DNA of 64,000 nt from Butyrivibrio sp. (lineage in GTDB: Bacteria; Bacillota; Clostridia; Lachnospirales; Lachnospiraceae). Positions 22,764-29,117 of this stretch are shown piece by piece. Both the position numbers and the translations under genes were made by a program. The notes under the pieces are model-generated. The model did no database searches. It had not been told where the DNA came from and saw only the letters and a program-made list of their open reading frames with translations. The stretch is taken from positions 62,001-126,000 of the forward strand of contig JAFSQI010000127.1 in NCBI GenBank assembly GCA_017446685.1. Reading direction: 5' to 3'. The first letter of the stretch is position 1. Each line of letters starts with the position of its first letter.

Positions 22764-22800
22764 AAAAATGTCGGTTCACTTATTCTGAATCGACATTTTT
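22764..22800. terminator. Bidirectional terminator between tRNA-Thr and the GlgB-like gene
   Basis: 15-bp stem (AAAAATGTCGGTTCA against TGAATCGACATTTTT, one G-T pair) with a 7-base loop, A-run on one side and T-run on the other, so it can serve both convergent units. Confidence 0.75.
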
Positions 22801-22876: not shown

Positions 22877-25381
22877 TTATTTTGTTTCCTTCTTAATTGT
22901 CTTTTTTACCGATGTTTTCTTTACAGAACTGCCGTTTTTTCTTGATGAACTTTTCTTTGGCGCAGTCTTTTTCTCAGATGGCTTTGCAGAAGAAACGCTT
23001 CCCAGAACCTGTTCTGTAACTATGCTTGAGATTCTTTCTTCCTGAATCTTCTCATACTTTTCTTCTATTGCTTTTTCCTGCTCAACAATTTCTTTTTCAT
23101 ATTTGAGCTTAAGCTCTGCAAGAAGCTGCTGTTCTTCAAGATCCTGCTTTTCTTTTAATTCCTTTAATTTTTGTGCACGCTCATTTTCTTTTTTAATTTC
23201 TTCTTCTTCCCTGATGGCACGAATCTTCTTTTCCTGCTCAGTGTAAGGAATAAAGCTCAAAATTGAGACTGAACAAGGCGCAAGCTTAAGTGAGATGCTG
23301 TAGTCTCTGCCATCAACAAGTTTTCTGACAGATTCTCTCTTGCCTTCATTCAAAACTCCTGTTCCACCGTAGCTAAGATCATCACTGTTAAATATTTCTG
23401 TATATCTGCCATCAGCAGGAACACCTATTTCAAAATCTCTGCCAACACCTGCAAGATTTGCTACTACAAGCAGTCTTTCAACGTCATTGCTGCTCTTTCT
23501 TATAAATGAAATCATGCATTCGGAAGCTGCCATATTATTTATCCACTCATAACCACTGTCTGAGCTGTCAAGCTGATGAAGTGCATCATGCTTGTAATAT
23601 ATCTCATTAAGCTTCTTTAAAAGATTTTCTACAAATACTGCCTGGTCAATTGTAAGGGCATCCGGCTCCATATAAAGATGTTTTCTTCCCGGATGTGTAT
23701 ACATAAGTCCAAGTGCTAGTCTAAGATTTGCCATCTTCTGACCGGAATCACCTGGCATAAGATAATAAAGCCCCTCTAATCCTTTTTCAATATCTTCATG
23801 AGTAAATGCAAGAATAAATCTCTCTGTATAACTATAAATCAAACTAAACGTAAGCTCATCATGATGACCTGATCTGAAAAGAGGATCGTTCTGCATATAT
23901 GAAATAAAGTCTCTTGTCCAACCATTATTCCATTTATAATCAAAGCCCAGTCCGCCGTTGTCGACATCTTCTGTAAGCTGAGGCCAGCAGGCTGTTTCTT
24001 TTGTTATCATCATGATACCGGGATTATCCTTGTGAATAACCTGATTCATATGCTTAATAAACTCAAGTGCTTCCAGATTTTCATTGCCGCCATAGATATT
24101 AGGCATCCACTCTCCGGGATTTCTGTCATAATCAAGGTAAAGAATCCTTGAAATATCTGATGTTCTAAGTCCATCAATATGGAAATTCTCAATCCAGTAC
24201 AGAGCATTTGAAATAAGGAAATTAGATACTTCTTTTCTACCATAATCAAATACAAGGTCACCTGATTTAGGAGATACTCCAATTCGGGGGTCCGCATATT
24301 CATACAAAGTTTTGCCATCAAAATCACTAAGTCCGCATGATGACTTAGGGAAAAATGTAGGCACCCAATCAAGGATTACTCTGATATCGGCATTGTGCAT
24401 TGTATTTACGAAAGTCATAAATTCTTCAACACTTCCGCTTGAATCATCAAGTGCAAAGAAATCCAGAATATGATAAAAATGTCCGGGAAGATGTTTCATT
24501 ACCGGCATAAGTTCAACTGTGTTAAAGCCATGATTCTGAACATACTCAAGTACATCTGCTGTAACTTCAGCCATAGAGCTCTTTTGTCCGTGACGTCCAG
24601 CAAAAGCTTCAAGAGAAATCTCACAGATAGAAAGTGCATCCTCATCCTTTTCAAATTTTCTTCTCTTTGCAAGCCATTTCTCATCTGTCCAGGTAATCTG
24701 TCTGTTCTTTCTTATTACAGAAATAATTCCATTTTCACCCTTTGACTCAACTGCAAAAGGATCAGGTCTCTTATAAATAAGTCCGCTTCTTGTCTTAATC
24801 TCAAACTGATACCCATCCATTTCAGACGCACCTGGAACAAAAATCTCAAAAACTCCGATAGGGTCAAGTCTGTGCATCTGGCATAATCTTCCGTCCCAGT
24901 TATTAAAGTCACCAATTACACTGACTCTCGCTGCAGAAGGTGCCCAAACAGCAAATTCTGTACCATCAACACCATTTCTTGTCTTAGGATGTGCCCCCAG
25001 CTTTTCATAAATATGGTAATGAATTCCACTGCCAAACTTAATAAAATCTTCCCTATCCATAAGCGCTTCAAAAGCATAGGGATCATATACACTCTTACTG
25101 CTTCCTGCAGTATCGGTGATTATGAATTTATATCTTATTTTATCCACATACGGAACAATTGTAGCAAAAAAGCCTGCTTCATCAGCAAGTTCCATAGGGT
25201 ATTCCTTTTTGGTATTTTCAATATAAACACTGACATTATCCGCGTCTGGATAAAATGCCTGAATAAGATAGCTGTTTCCTACCTTATGCGCCCCAAGTAT
25301 CCTGTGAGGATTATCACCATCAGAATAGATGATTTCCTCAATCTCAGGCCAGTTCATCATTTTGTACAATTTGTTATTCAC
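22877..25381 (-). CDS. GlgB-like protein with substituted catalytic residues and a coiled-coil, lysine-rich tail (probable pseudoenzyme)
   Basis: The overall plan is glycogen branching enzyme: an N-terminal CBM48 region, a GH13 barrel (SDFDGKTLYEYADPRIG; NFHIDGLR; MPNIYGGNENLEALEFIKHMN) and a C-terminal beta domain. Numbering from the GTG start, the nucleophile position in DGLRxD is Ser408, the acid/base position is Lys461 (MMITKE for MMIAEE), and the third Asp is Glu529 (THED for SHDE). About 20 residues after HPGRK are also missing. Asp338 and Arg406 remain. Residues 712-791 are a Glu/Lys-rich coiled coil and 796-834 a Lys/Ser-rich tail, absent from ordinary GlgB (about 640-740). I chose the GTG with GAGGAGGGG upstream; an ATG 19 codons earlier is possible but has a poor site. 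Activity is doubtful; a glycogen-binding or scaffold role is inference. Confidence 0.8.
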   Translation of the reverse strand: MNNKLYKMMNWPEIEEIIYSDGDNPHRILGAHKVGNSYLIQAFYPDADNVSVYIENTKKEYPMELADEAGFFATIVPYVDKIRYKFIITDTAGSSKSVYDPYAFEALMDREDFIKFGSGIHYHIYEKLGAHPKTRNGVDGTEFAVWAPSAARVSVIGDFNNWDGRLCQMHRLDPIGVFEIFVPGASEMDGYQFEIKTRSGLIYKRPDPFAVESKGENGIISVIRKNRQITWTDEKWLAKRRKFEKDEDALSICEISLEAFAGRHGQKSSMAEVTADVLEYVQNHGFNTVELMPVMKHLPGHFYHILDFFALDDSSGSVEEFMTFVNTMHNADIRVILDWVPTFFPKSSCGLSDFDGKTLYEYADPRIGVSPKSGDLVFDYGRKEVSNFLISNALYWIENFHIDGLRTSDISRILYLDYDRNPGEWMPNIYGGNENLEALEFIKHMNQVIHKDNPGIMMITKETACWPQLTEDVDNGGLGFDYKWNNGWTRDFISYMQNDPLFRSGHHDELTFSLIYSYTERFILAFTHEDIEKGLEGLYYLMPGDSGQKMANLRLALGLMYTHPGRKHLYMEPDALTIDQAVFVENLLKKLNEIYYKHDALHQLDSSDSGYEWINNMAASECMISFIRKSSNDVERLLVVANLAGVGRDFEIGVPADGRYTEIFNSDDLSYGGTGVLNEGKRESVRKLVDGRDYSISLKLAPCSVSILSFIPYTEQEKKIRAIREEEEIKKENERAQKLKELKEKQDLEEQQLLAELKLKYEKEIVEQEKAIEEKYEKIQEERISSIVTEQVLGSVSSAKPSEKKTAPKKSSSRKNGSSVKKTSVKKTIKKETK

Positions 25382-25456
25382 AAAATTCCCCTCCTCTATG
25401 AACGGTAGTTTAGTTCTGAAAATACTGACTTTTTTCATATTATTCTCAATATTTCC

Positions 25457-26710
25457 TCAAATGATTGTACCATTAATTGTATGTATAAATAAACCACTTA
25501 GCAGCTTTGGTTCAAACCAGGTTGATTTTGGCGGCATCAAAAGACCTTTATCAGCCACCTCAAAAAGTTCAGAAATCGAAGTTGGATACATAGAAAAAGC
25601 AAGTTTCATATCAGTATTACATCTTTTCTCAAGTTCAGACAGTCCCCTTATGCCACCCACAAAATCTATTCGTTTATCTGTGCGCGGATCTCCTATTCCA
25701 AGGATCGGAGTAAGCACTTCATTCTGCAAAACAGACACATCAAGTCCCTCAACCGGATCACTATTCAGAATATCTTCATGGGCGTTGATCCTATACCACT
25801 TATTTTCAAGGAACATACCAAATTCACCCTTTTTTTCCGGCTTTACTGCTGTTTCTTCCTCTTTTACATCAAATTTCTCAGAAATTTTTTCAATAAACTC
25901 ATCAGGAGTATAACCATTTAAATCTTTTATGACTCTGTTATAATCCATTATCATAAGTTCATCATCAGAAAACAGCACTGAAAGAAAATAGTCAGATTCA
26001 AGCTTTCCCCTTACTTTTCCTTTATTTTCTTCACGCTTTTTTAATCCAACTTTTACCGCAGATGCACATCTATGATGACCATCAGCTATATAAATAGAAT
26101 TAATTGTAGTAAATATTCTGCAAATTGTTTCTGTTTCTTCAAGATCAGAAATAATAAAAATCCTATTTCTTACCCCGTCCTCCGAAGTAAAATCATAAAC
26201 AGGTTCATCAACCTCTTTTACTTTGGAAATAAGTTCAGTCAATAGACGATTATTTCTATAGCACAAAAAGATCGGCCCGGTCTGTGCTTCACAATAATAT
26301 ACATGTTTAATTCTGTCCTCTTCTTTTTCCTGTCTGGTATTTTCATGCTTTTTTATAACATTATTCAAATAATCATCTATGGAAGAAAGCGCCACGATTC
26401 CGGTCTGAGTTCTGCCATTCATTGTCTGTTCATAAATATAATAACAAGGCTTTTCATCCTGAACAAAAAGCCCATTATCAATCTGCTCCCAGAGCATATC
26501 ATGTGCTTTTTTATACACCTCATCAGAATACATATCGTAATCTTCTGCGAATTGTGTCTCCGGTCTGTCTATAGCAAGAAAAGTATGTGGATTTTTTTGC
26601 ACCTTCTCATAGGCTTCCTTCCTATTAAAAACGTCATAGGGAAGCGATGCTATTTCCGAAGCTTTATCCTCTACAGGTCTATATGCCTTAAATGGTTTAA
26701 TGTCTGCCAC
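25457..26710 (-). CDS. DUF1015 family protein
   Basis: A soluble protein of 417 residues in the DUF1015 family of unknown function. The family opening (DIKPFKAYRP ... SLPYDVFNRKEA), the middle motif ADGHHRCASAVKVG, and the internal DYNRVI region are all present. DUF1015 genes are often next to serC-serA, as here, but no function has been settled. I chose a GTG start with GGGAGG seven bases upstream over a TTG five codons earlier. Two hairpins separate it from serA, so linkage may be partial. Confidence 0.9.
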   Translation of the reverse strand: MADIKPFKAYRPVEDKASEIASLPYDVFNRKEAYEKVQKNPHTFLAIDRPETQFAEDYDMYSDEVYKKAHDMLWEQIDNGLFVQDEKPCYYIYEQTMNGRTQTGIVALSSIDDYLNNVIKKHENTRQEKEEDRIKHVYYCEAQTGPIFLCYRNNRLLTELISKVKEVDEPVYDFTSEDGVRNRIFIISDLEETETICRIFTTINSIYIADGHHRCASAVKVGLKKREENKGKVRGKLESDYFLSVLFSDDELMIMDYNRVIKDLNGYTPDEFIEKISEKFDVKEEETAVKPEKKGEFGMFLENKWYRINAHEDILNSDPVEGLDVSVLQNEVLTPILGIGDPRTDKRIDFVGGIRGLSELEKRCNTDMKLAFSMYPTSISELFEVADKGLLMPPKSTWFEPKLLSGLFIHTINGTII

Positions 26711-26747
26711 TTCAATTCCTCCCAAAAGTCTTTTTATAACATTTTAA

Positions 26748-26865: not shown

Positions 26866-28035
26866 TTATTTTTCCTTACGTACTACCCTTACTCGAACCA
26901 CGCCTTCAATTGACTGCATTTTTTCTTCAAGTTCATCTGTAATGGAATCTTCAAGGTCAATAAGTGTGTAAGCATAATCTCCTTTTGACTTATTGGTCAT
27001 ATCAGAAATATTATAACCTGAACCACCAAGTACAGTAGTAAACTGGCTGATCATATTTGCAACATTTTTATGGAAAATAGCAATTCTTGGACTGTCACAA
27101 ATTCCCATATCACAATTAGGGAAATTGACAGAGTTATTGATATTTCCGTTTTCAAGATAATCTTTCAGTTCAAGAACCGCTTTAACAGCACAGTTATCTT
27201 CAGATTCCTCTGTAGACGCGCCAAGATGAGGAATAACAATACAGCCGTCATGTCCAGCAATGGTAGGATTTGGGAAATCTGTAACATATTTGCGGATTTT
27301 TCCGGAATTGATACCTGCAAGGATATCAGCTTCATTGCAAAGTATATCTCTGGCAAGATTAAGGATGATAACGCCTTTTTTCATCTTTGAAATAGCGTCC
27401 GCATTTATCATTCCTTTAGTGGAATCAAGTGCCGGTACATGTATTGTGATAATATCGCACTTTGAATAAATATCATCAACATTTGTCACGTGCTTAACAT
27501 CTGAAGAAAGTCTCCATGCAGCATCAATTGAAAGATATGGATCATAACCATATACTTCCATTCCAAGCTGTCTTGCTGCATTCGCAACTCTTACTCCAAT
27601 AGCTCCAAGTCCGATAATTCCAAGCTTTTTCCCGAAAATCTCAGTTCCTGCAAATTTCTTTTTACTCTTCTCTGTAAGCTTTGCAATATCAGGATCACCT
27701 GCATTAGCCTTAACCCATTCAGTTCCGCCGATAATGTCTCTGGATGCAATAAGCATTGCAGCAAGAACCATCTCTTTTACACCATTTGCATTTGCTCCCG
27801 GTGTATTAAATACAACAATTCCTTTCTCAGCACATCTTTCAAGAGGAATGTTATTAACACCTGCTCCTGCTCTTGCAATAGCAAGAAGGTTAGAAGAAAA
27901 ATCCATTTCAAGCATATTGGCACTTCTGACAAGAATTCCATCTGCCTCATCGACGTTATCAACTGCCTGATATTCATCAGTAAAATTATTAAGACCGATC
28001 TTCGCAATCGGATTCATGCATTTATACTTGTACAT
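26866..28035 (-). CDS. serA: D-3-phosphoglycerate dehydrogenase
   Basis: First step of serine synthesis: 3-phosphoglycerate to 3-phosphohydroxypyruvate with NAD. The 389-residue protein is the short type, with the NAD-binding motif GIIGLGAIGVRVANAA, the catalytic Arg-Glu-His set (LNLARDILCNE; VIPHLGASTEE), and a C-terminal ACT domain (about 318-385) that would allow allosteric control. Its ATG overlaps the serC stop by one base, giving coupled translation of two successive pathway enzymes. Confidence 0.96.
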   Translation of the reverse strand: MYKYKCMNPIAKIGLNNFTDEYQAVDNVDEADGILVRSANMLEMDFSSNLLAIARAGAGVNNIPLERCAEKGIVVFNTPGANANGVKEMVLAAMLIASRDIIGGTEWVKANAGDPDIAKLTEKSKKKFAGTEIFGKKLGIIGLGAIGVRVANAARQLGMEVYGYDPYLSIDAAWRLSSDVKHVTNVDDIYSKCDIITIHVPALDSTKGMINADAISKMKKGVIILNLARDILCNEADILAGINSGKIRKYVTDFPNPTIAGHDGCIVIPHLGASTEESEDNCAVKAVLELKDYLENGNINNSVNFPNCDMGICDSPRIAIFHKNVANMISQFTTVLGGSGYNISDMTNKSKGDYAYTLIDLEDSITDELEEKMQSIEGVVRVRVVRKEK

Positions 28036-29117
28036 CAGCCGTTCTCCTTTTCAAATTTATCCATGAATTCCACAAGCTTCTGAACTCCTTCAATTGGCAT
28101 CGCATTGTAGATACTAGCTCTCATACCGCCAACTGTTCTATGACCTTTAAGAGAAACAAATCCTGCCTTGGTAGCTTCAGCAATAAATTTTGCATTAAGC
28201 TCATCACTGTCTGTAACAAAAGGAACATTCATAAGAGAACGATCATCTACTCTTACAGTTCCCTTAAACATCTTGCTGGAATCAAGATAATCATAAAGAA
28301 CTTTTGCCTTAGCCTCATTTCTCTTTTTCATCTCTTCAAGTCCGCCCTGAGCCTTAAGCCATTTGAATACAAGGCCGCACATATAAATGCTCCAGCAGTT
28401 TGGTGTGTTATATAAAGAACCATTATCTGCCTGTGTCTTCCATTTAAGCATTGTAGGCGTATAAGATGGAACATCATCAGTTATAAGATCCTCTCTTATA
28501 ATGCTGATAACAAGTCCTGCAGGTCCTACATTCTTTTGAACTCCGCCATAAATTACTCCATATTTTGTAACATCAACTGGTTCAGAAAGGAAACATGAAG
28601 ATACATCAGAAACAAGAATATGTCCTTTTGTATTTGGAAGTTTTTTGAACTTTGTTCCGTAAATTGTATTATTTTCGCAGATGTAAACATAATCTGCATC
28701 TTCAGGAATATCCAGATCAGAACAATCCGGAATATAAGAGAATGTCTTGTCTGCACTTGAAGCAACCTCAATTGCTTCGCCATATTTCTGCGCTTCCTGG
28801 TAAGCTTTTTTTGCCCACTGACCTGTGATAATATATGCAGCCTTCTTATTCTTCATAAGATTAAGAGGAACAGCAGCAAATTGCTGGCTGGCGCCGCCCT
28901 GTAAAAAGAGAACCTTATAGTTGTCAGGAATATTCATAAGATCTCTGATATCCTGCTCAGCAGTCTGTATAACATTATCAAATGTCTTGGATCTATGACT
29001 CATCTCATTAATGGACATACCACATCCATTATAATCAAGCATCTCTGCTGCAGCCTGTTTCAAAACTTCTTCCGGAAGTACTGCCGGACCAGCCGAAAAA
29101 TTATAAACTCTTGCCAC
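28035..29117 (-). CDS. serC: Phosphoserine aminotransferase
   Basis: Second enzyme of serine synthesis, PLP-dependent. The 360-residue protein shows the family opening NFSAGPAVLPEEVL, the GGASQQF phosphate-binding region, DVSSCFLSEP (PLP Asp), and the lysine motif YGGVQKNVGPAGL. The start is a GTG with GGAGG nine bases upstream. serC-serA is a classic pair; the downstream phosphatase serB is not present. Confidence 0.97.
   Translation of the reverse strand: MARVYNFSAGPAVLPEEVLKQAAAEMLDYNGCGMSINEMSHRSKTFDNVIQTAEQDIRDLMNIPDNYKVLFLQGGASQQFAAVPLNLMKNKKAAYIITGQWAKKAYQEAQKYGEAIEVASSADKTFSYIPDCSDLDIPEDADYVYICENNTIYGTKFKKLPNTKGHILVSDVSSCFLSEPVDVTKYGVIYGGVQKNVGPAGLVISIIREDLITDDVPSYTPTMLKWKTQADNGSLYNTPNCWSIYMCGLVFKWLKAQGGLEEMKKRNEAKAKVLYDYLDSSKMFKGTVRVDDRSLMNVPFVTDSDELNAKFIAEATKAGFVSLKGHRTVGGMRASIYNAMPIEGVQKLVEFMDKFEKENG

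Follow-up and report, generated by a model that had tools for sequence, protein, structure and literature searches.

Why would a bacterium retain a branching-enzyme gene whose catalytic residues have been replaced? The question is raised by a glgB2-type gene in a 64,000-nucleotide stretch of Butyrivibrio sp. DNA (contig JAFSQI010000127.1, positions 62,001 to 126,000; hereafter, the window), which encodes a long homologue of the glycogen branching enzyme GlgB that appears to be catalytically dead. The catalytic residues are lost lineage-wide in the genus, the sequence is under purifying selection, and an active-looking homologue is present in the same genome; the protein thus appears to qualify as a conserved pseudoenzyme. 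In our assessment, the long GlgB has been retained because it contributes non-catalytically to glycogen synthesis, with glycogen or the active GlgB or GlgA as its partner, with a probability of roughly 0.5.

The longest open reading frame starts at an ATG at 25438 and encodes 853 amino acids (aa), and an alternative GTG start lies at 25381. The GTG is the better start because GAGGAGGGG lies directly upstream of it and because a start codon occupies this column in all 75 genus orthologues (GTG 42, ATG 28, and TTG 5), which upheld the start and numbering adopted in an original prediction made from the DNA letters. Residues are therefore numbered from GTG 25381 below unless stated otherwise; ATG numbering is 19 higher. 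The domain order obtained with Pfam (N1-CBM48-GH13-C) is that of the GlgB branching enzyme, and the GH13 score was 44.5 bits, whereas the short GlgB and three catalytic long GlgBs scored 62–72 bits. The best phmmer match among solved GlgBs was 3k1d (1.2e-147, covering residues 33–724), and the branching-enzyme cut-offs of the NCBIfam models TIGR01515 and PRK12313 were both passed. The window protein is thus like the N1-containing (Type 1) GH13 GlgBs, such as 3k1d, in domain order, full-length match, and family cut-offs, and differs from them in that the nucleophile, the acid/base, the third Asp, and the region-I His are replaced, the acceptor loop is deleted, and a coil and a basic tail are present.

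In the phmmer alignment with solved GlgBs, the window motifs DGLRTSD, ITKET, and THED were aligned with DGLRVDA, IAEES, and SHDE, respectively, and the codons of DGLRTSD (S408 and D409), MITKE (K461), and THED (H528 and E529) were checked. This alignment bore out the earlier claim that S408, K461, and E529 replace all three catalytic residues, namely those that we take to be the nucleophile, the acid/base, and the third carboxylate (presumably D405, E458, and D526 in E. coli), and it additionally revealed that the region-I His has become Phe (F343). Of the seven conserved active-site residues, four were accordingly changed, and the remaining Asp, Arg, and His were retained. Regarding the acceptor loop, the deletion that had been proposed is real, but it amounts to 16 residues and not about 20 (23 aligned residues in the window protein versus 39 in 114 of the 125 catalytic members). 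The window protein is a GlgB homologue that, by its sequence, would be unable to use the classical GH13 mechanism.

Two alternatives would leave chemistry in the old pocket. The protein could still be a GH13 enzyme if D409 and E462 had moved into the nucleophile and acid roles, given that D409 is invariant in all 75 genus proteins where catalytic relatives have Ala, and that all 58 rows of one alignment (A1) have Glu at position 462 (E481 from the ATG). The spacing of the motifs argues against such a move. The distance from the region-I Asp to the nucleophile column was 71 residues, with 54 more to the acid column, in all 125 catalytic long GlgBs and in the window protein, and that to the third carboxylate was 192 residues in the window protein, 120 of the 125 catalytic proteins, and 66 of the 75 genus proteins (191 in the other 9). 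Since these distances equal those of catalytic relatives, with no indel among the region-I Asp, nucleophile, and acid columns, D409 aligns with their Ala and not with the nucleophile. In active enzymes, the residue following the acid/base Glu is not the acid. Moreover, all 75 genus proteins have a basic residue at the acid position and lack the region-I His, and the acceptor loop is short. D409 as a shifted nucleophile was thus rejected on account of the absent indel and the basic residue at the acid position, and we give next to no credence to a relocated GH13 mechanism. We are equally sceptical of a new chemistry performed in the old pocket by a re-fixed D409, K461, and E529: position 409 is Asp, position 461 basic, and position 529 acidic in all 75 proteins, but the same set reads equally well as a charge-swapped salt-bridge network stabilising a dead pocket, and other residues are found in other dead lineages. 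The three positions may form such a charge-swapped bridge.

A dead long GlgB match (at least 893 bits) was obtained in 75 of the 79 Butyrivibrio genomes, and the four genomes without a match (G340, G355, G369, and G371) were 60–72% complete. Among the 75 orthologues compared (L001, L004, L033–L060, and L297–L341), the nucleophile column contained S (47), A (11), P (10), and T (7), and the region-I His column contained F (62), Y (7), T (4), L (1), and S (1); the acid column held only K or R and the third-carboxylate column only E or D (counts in Table 1). The Arg was retained in 75, the region-I Asp in 73, and the His before the third carboxylate in 71 proteins. The acceptor loop was short in all of them, and the reading frame was uninterrupted in every member (one extends to the contig end). 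Because the nucleophile and the acid are replaced in 75 of 75 orthologues, chance is excluded, and a one-off mutation, a sequencing error, or a pseudogene was ruled out by the orthologues together with their low ratio of nonsynonymous to synonymous substitution rates (dN/dS).

The dN/dS values were calculated by the Nei-Gojobori method with our own script for 55 genome pairs (11 genomes), and pairs with saturated dS (1 and 3) were excluded from the medians. The median was 0.081 for the dead long GlgB and 0.036 for the short GlgB over the same 55 genome pairs. Although dS was near saturation (1.7) over the 55 pairs, the five closest pairs (dS 0.21–0.32) gave a dN/dS of 0.03–0.07. By domain, the ratio was lowest in CBM48 and highest in the basic tail (Table 1). 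The fold of the dead long GlgB is thus held by purifying selection, at a dN/dS approximately twice that of the active enzyme, in line with the original prediction that the fold is under selection. Outside the genus, dead pairs of other lineages gave 0.036–0.166 in six of seven informative pairs, several of which had saturated dS; the L135/L136 pair gave 0.278 (barrel 0.455, other domains 0.13), and the L129/L226 pair was identical and gave no value. A decaying relic without a role, freed from selection, would account for a dN/dS twice that of the short GlgB, for substitutions that vary across lineages, and for the barrel value of the very divergent L135/L136 pair. However, no interrupted frame occurs in the 75 genus members, the ratios are far below 1 in the genus and low in all but one informative pair elsewhere, and the N-terminal segment described below is 95% identical. 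This reading is largely refuted by the dN/dS values, and we consider it highly improbable.

An intact second GlgB, envisaged in the original prediction, was indeed found: the window genome (G000; the dead gene lies on contig C80) contains an intact short GlgB (L002). It also contains glgA and, on two contigs, glgC-type genes, each adjoining a weaker glgC-like gene that is probably glgD. Among the matches listed, a short-type GlgB match was present beside the dead copy in at least 72 of the 75 genus genomes (G324, G345, and G353 being uncertain), and all 16 genus short GlgBs compared, L002 included, carried all seven residues. When the short GlgB of the window genome was used as the query, all 26 dead-long genomes outside the genus were found to carry an intact short GlgB, and a short-type match was absent in 14 of the 80 catalytic-long genomes searched (of 118); 11 of these 14 had no other GlgB, and three (G242, G198, and G044) had only a diverged GlgB of 415–489 bits. 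Counting all 14, the association between a dead long GlgB and a second GlgB gave a Fisher p value of 0.020, with relatedness ignored. These observations fit, but do not prove, the view that catalysis is lost only where another GlgB covers it.

The family search covered 299 Lachnospiraceae genomes (298 genera). The non-Butyrivibrio sample consisted of the 148 proteins from 144 genomes (28, L005–L032, plus 120) listed as most like the window protein. Among these listed matches, 122 carried all seven residues and 26 did not (2 of 28 and 24 of 120), a frequency biased by the choice of the sample by likeness to the window protein. The survey of the family that had been proposed thus revealed substituted versions both within and outside the genus. 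Regarding the 26 altered proteins, 19 lacked the nucleophile Asp, three more lacked the acid Glu, three more lacked the third Asp (nucleophile and acid kept), and one (L235) had only a His changed; the substitutions varied between lineages. Fourteen further relatives outside the genus (L121 and L124–L136) lacked residues and three (L120, L122, and L123) were intact; at least one of the 14 duplicates a listed family protein (L129 = L226). No dead member was found in other families of the order, where 20 of 20 sampled long GlgBs were intact. Six dead proteins representing five lineages gave scores of 53–112 bits for GlgB_N, CBM48, and the C domain (cut-offs 21–27), and GH13 scored 22–44 bits or gave no match (L135).

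A FastTree phylogeny of 184 rows, from which the catalytic segments had been removed, implied 10 changes between the catalytic and dead states, nine of which were forced by starred branches. IQ-TREE (LG+C20 by posterior mean site frequency, quick mode), applied to 79 of the 184 rows, implied 13 changes on the best tree, 10 of which were forced by well-supported branches. Parsimony gives no direction to these changes, the quick and FastTree support values are less reliable with long rows, and the placement of the long branches L134 and L237 is uncertain. The changes are read as losses because regaining a full active site is implausible, and catalysis seems to have been lost at least about 10 separate times in the long GlgBs of the family. 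A single ancient loss was considered because 32 dead rows formed one clade with FastTree; it was rejected because the mixture-model tree breaks this clade up. The acceptor loop was lost in 34 of the 58 rows classed as non-catalytic, Butyrivibrio accounting for 18 of these, versus 1 of 126 catalytic rows; a tie between loop loss and catalytic loss was nevertheless rejected, the independent-pair test being not significant (median p 0.25).

Two observations concern the extremes of this series. L138 (G221:C21:103795-122014) carries all seven active-site residues, yet its acceptor loop has 16 instead of 39 residues, and it is possibly an intermediate toward the dead form. L135 and L136 (Candidatus Colinaster) are dead, and the GH13 Pfam model misses L135; the N-terminal segment, N1, CBM48, and C are recognisable in them.

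Regarding the distribution of constraint, 165 sites were at least 97% invariant in the 125 catalytic relatives; the genus keeps 93 of them (at ≥90%) and loses 38 (<10%). Thirty-four of the 38 lost sites (counting the four catalytic ones) fall in the barrel, and sites within 6 residues of catalytic positions were modestly enriched among them (p 0.027). The list of genus-fixed sites compares one genus with the whole family, and catalytic clades were therefore added as controls for the comparison of identities. Mean pairwise identity among the 75 genus proteins was 0.947 in residues 26–52 versus 0.647 over residues 20–730 (ATG numbering), and the same comparison in 12 diverse genus members gave 0.928 versus 0.543. 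The corresponding values for the segment and overall were 0.701 and 0.759, 0.678 and 0.733, and 0.728 and 0.706 in three catalytic clades, where the segment thus exceeds the overall level by at most 0.02–0.03, and 0.504 and 0.610 in 40 random catalytic proteins. The identity of the coil was 0.664 in the genus versus 0.26–0.37 in the catalytic sets, and that of the barrel was 0.653 versus 0.71–0.83. Constraint has moved to the N-terminus and the coil in the Butyrivibrio dead GlgBs.

Codons for the same amino acid differed as often in the N-terminal segment (0.575) as elsewhere (0.46–0.54), so the constraint acts on the protein, and an RNA or DNA element beneath the segment was ruled out. The segment (LYxxM[DN]WxxIExIxYS...P..ILGxH) closely resembles the consensus of catalytic long GlgBs and could be recognised in nearly all 40 other dead or altered proteins, including L135 and L136 with their wrecked barrels; it was weak in L130, whose contig begins inside the gene, and in L245. 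The pattern fits a shared non-catalytic interface that would be older than the losses, and the segment is likely to be an interface with a partner. At the other end of the protein, the coil and tail gave no other match within the genome. The tail had been regarded as an addition to the dead protein, a view that is not supported, as tails of at least 60 residues occur in 62 of the 125 catalytic long GlgBs; the basic tail was thus rejected as a mark of the dead form. Low-complexity tails rich in Lys, Ala, and Thr are frequent on catalytic and dead long GlgBs (e.g., L149, L188, L213, and window 22880-23245).

The genomic site further clarifies the origin of the gene. The minus-strand order in the window is serC, serA, DUF1015, glgB2, and then apt and relA. 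A DUF1015 gene lay upstream in the same direction at 48 of the 59 loci from Butyrivibrio, at 34 of the 99 with a catalytic long GlgB, and at 17 of the 38 other dead ones (L061–L256), and serA, serC, and ilv genes occurred farther upstream in catalytic and dead classes alike. Catalytic long GlgBs of other genera occupy the same site, and at the loci that share it the dead gene is most readily viewed as the orthologue itself, inactivated where it stood, rather than as an additional copy. The suggestion that the protein was separately domesticated was therefore not supported.

On this basis, the gene would be the Butyrivibrio orthologue of the long (N1-CBM48-GH13-C) GlgB that is catalytic in most sampled Lachnospiraceae genera. 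Its active site would have been dismantled, with branching now the task of the short GlgB encoded at another locus, as the residues of the latter indicate, and the protein would have been retained because it serves glycogen synthesis in a second, non-catalytic way for which no active site is needed. We infer that the dead GlgB most likely acts with glycogen or with the active GlgB or GlgA, setting activity, chain length, or granule organisation by way of the N-terminal segment, CBM48, and the coil. The second role may be older than the losses, which would explain the repeated death in place with the other domains and the N-terminal segment kept. An accessory or regulatory role, as had been suggested at the outset, is the most economical reading; the forms named there, a granule scaffold or a regulator of the true GlgB, are candidates. 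A broader proposal, which we advance more tentatively, is that the long GlgB is a moonlighting protein in general, whose non-catalytic job (N-terminal segment, N1, CBM48, and C) would be more widely retained than catalysis, the latter having been lost at least about 10 times, often at the same site, and with an intact short GlgB present in all dead-long genomes tested. If true, the family would amount to a naturally occurring set of separation-of-function variants of a branching enzyme.

Several observations weigh against a role in glycogen synthesis with glycogen or an active glycogen enzyme as the partner. Residue K211 of CBM48 (ATG numbering), which we take to be the counterpart of the glucan-contacting Lys in other CBM48 modules, is Gln in 74 of the 75 genus proteins; together with the 38 lost sites, mostly in the barrel, this change would disfavour glucan being held by either the old cleft or the canonical site of CBM48. 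No glg genes were found among the window neighbours between 15000 and 35000, where the gene lies beside serine genes. Of the 99 catalytic and 38 dead loci, 50 and 16, respectively, had none of the ten tested neighbours, partly owing to contig ends, and the shared genomic position holds for part of the loci only. Moreover, the status of the long gene was counted among the matches listed, with the other 153 family genomes outside the count. Finally, when only the 11 genomes without any second GlgB were counted, the Fisher p value rose to 0.062, again with relatedness ignored.

The first of these points also counts against a specific alternative, in which the dead GlgB is a glucan-binding sensor or competitor that would bind glucan, linear or branched, but leave it uncut, and thereby limit the access of GlgB1 or GlgP. 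The retained CBM48, N1, and C domains and the precedent of added glucan sites in the plant protein ISA2 are compatible with it, but the genus-wide replacement of near-invariant residues of the old cleft and of K211 makes it a distinctly unlikely explanation. By contrast, the same lost Lys and barrel residues count in favour of a dead but conserved protein with a role outside glycogen, which would serve the serine and DUF1015 genes or have an unrelated structural or polyanion-binding role through the N-terminal segment, coil, and tail. The recurrent serC, serA, and DUF1015 neighbourhood and the lack of glg neighbours in the window would also fit. Yet the same neighbourhood hosts catalytic GlgBs (34 of 99), so that the site implies no serine role, CBM48 has the lowest dN/dS, and the genome contains glgA and glgC; we regard a role outside glycogen as somewhat unlikely, and retain the glycogen-related role as our preferred reading.

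Dead homologues retained beside active ones are known in other systems. ISA2, as described in PMC12510319, is a non-catalytic paralogue of plant isoamylase (GH13_11) that binds the active ISA1 and changes the polymer. Like the long GlgB, it is an alpha-glucan GH13 homologue that lost its catalytic residues lineage-wide and was retained beside an active paralogue; it differs in belonging to a plant debranching family with one ancestral loss and a demonstrated ISA1 complex, whereas the long GlgB shows many separate losses of an orthologue in place. The same source states that why the non-catalytic isoamylase stays under selection is not understood. GlgD, the inactive partner of GlgC in Firmicutes, has a modulatory role according to PMC9093745. 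It likewise stands beside an active enzyme of the same pathway and phylum, but it is a nucleotidyltransferase with a demonstrated heterotetramer. A further bacterial case is the GlgA-GlgB fusion of Criblamydiaceae and Waddliaceae, in which, as described in PMC11046441, the GlgB domain is inactive and another GlgB (GlgB2) is present; it arose in a different phylum, by rearrangement and fusion to GlgA. We found no report of a retained stand-alone dead GlgB among the open-licence papers searched.

Within the genus, PMC5716241 lists glgB2 of Butyrivibrio hungatei MB2003 (bhn_I1458, 824 aa) as a 1,4-alpha-glucan branching enzyme beside a glgB1 of 663 aa, and by length, genus, and GH13/CBM48 content, this glgB2 is probably the same gene. 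A glgB of B. fibrisolvens with activity was characterised in 1991 (cited in PMC9960391), and a review of gut glycogen reports that single genomes of Blautia and Dorea contain several homologues of glgB (PMC10395257). A link between N1 domains and the length of transferred chains has been described, although the function of these domains is called controversial (PMC6339891). Rumen and gut Lachnospiraceae are likely credited with too much branching capacity, because the NCBI family models pass the dead protein as a branching enzyme and a published genome table lists its probable B. hungatei counterpart as one. An orthologue whose active site is intact in certain genera and lost in others also provides a direct test of the non-catalytic functions of N1 and CBM48.

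Table 1. Coordinates of the dead glgB2-type gene, its domains and altered positions, and neighbouring features in the window.
Feature	Position	Strand	Basis and remarks
glgB2-type gene for catalytically dead long GlgB	22877..25381	minus	834 aa from GTG (853 aa from upstream ATG at 25438)
N-terminal segment, residues 26–52 from ATG	25283..25363	minus	best-conserved stretch in genus
GlgB_N (N1) domain	25076..25351	minus	PF22019 3.5e-29; dN/dS 0.105
CBM48 (N2) domain	24752..25003	minus	PF02922 3.9e-29; lowest domain dN/dS, 0.058
GH13 barrel, dead active site	23579..24637	minus	PF00128 44.5 bits; dN/dS 0.066
F343 replacing region-I His	24353..24355	minus	alignment; coordinate computed from open reading frame
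S408 replacing nucleophile Asp	24158..24160	minus	S, A, P or T in 75/75 genus proteins
D409, invariant in genus	24155..24157	minus	Ala in 99% of catalytic relatives
K461 replacing acid/base Glu	23999..24001	minus	K 69, R 6 among 75
E529 replacing third (SHD) Asp	23795..23797	minus	E 70, D 5 among 75
Codons (MEPD) just 5' of 16-residue acceptor-loop deletion	23657..23668	minus	loop short in 75/75
C-terminal all-beta domain	23255..23545	minus	PF02806 1e-16; dN/dS 0.108
Coiled-coil-like segment (conserved; judged by eye), then Lys/Ser/Thr-rich tail (variable)	22880..23245	minus	dN/dS coil 0.067, basic end 0.26
DUF1015 gene	25457-26725	minus	Pfam; between serA and glgB2
serA	26866-28035	minus	Pfam domains and order
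serC	28035-29117	minus	Pfam domains and order
Sigma-70-like site	29234-29207	minus	before serC; consensus match; promoter-like site count within 1.3 standard deviations of shuffles
Symmetric stem-loop with A and T runs	22764-22800		between glgB2 and apt; consensus match

The DUF1015 gene often adjoins serC-serA in Lachnospiraceae and is a candidate step or regulator of serine synthesis; no DUF1015 function was found among the open-licence papers searched, two of which mention the family. The stem-loop downstream of glgB2 may end transcription in both directions. The two glgC-type pairs of the window genome are located at G000:C30:383-2690 and G000:C118:254-2442, and the weak member of the second pair is much more divergent than that of the first (180 versus 320 bits).

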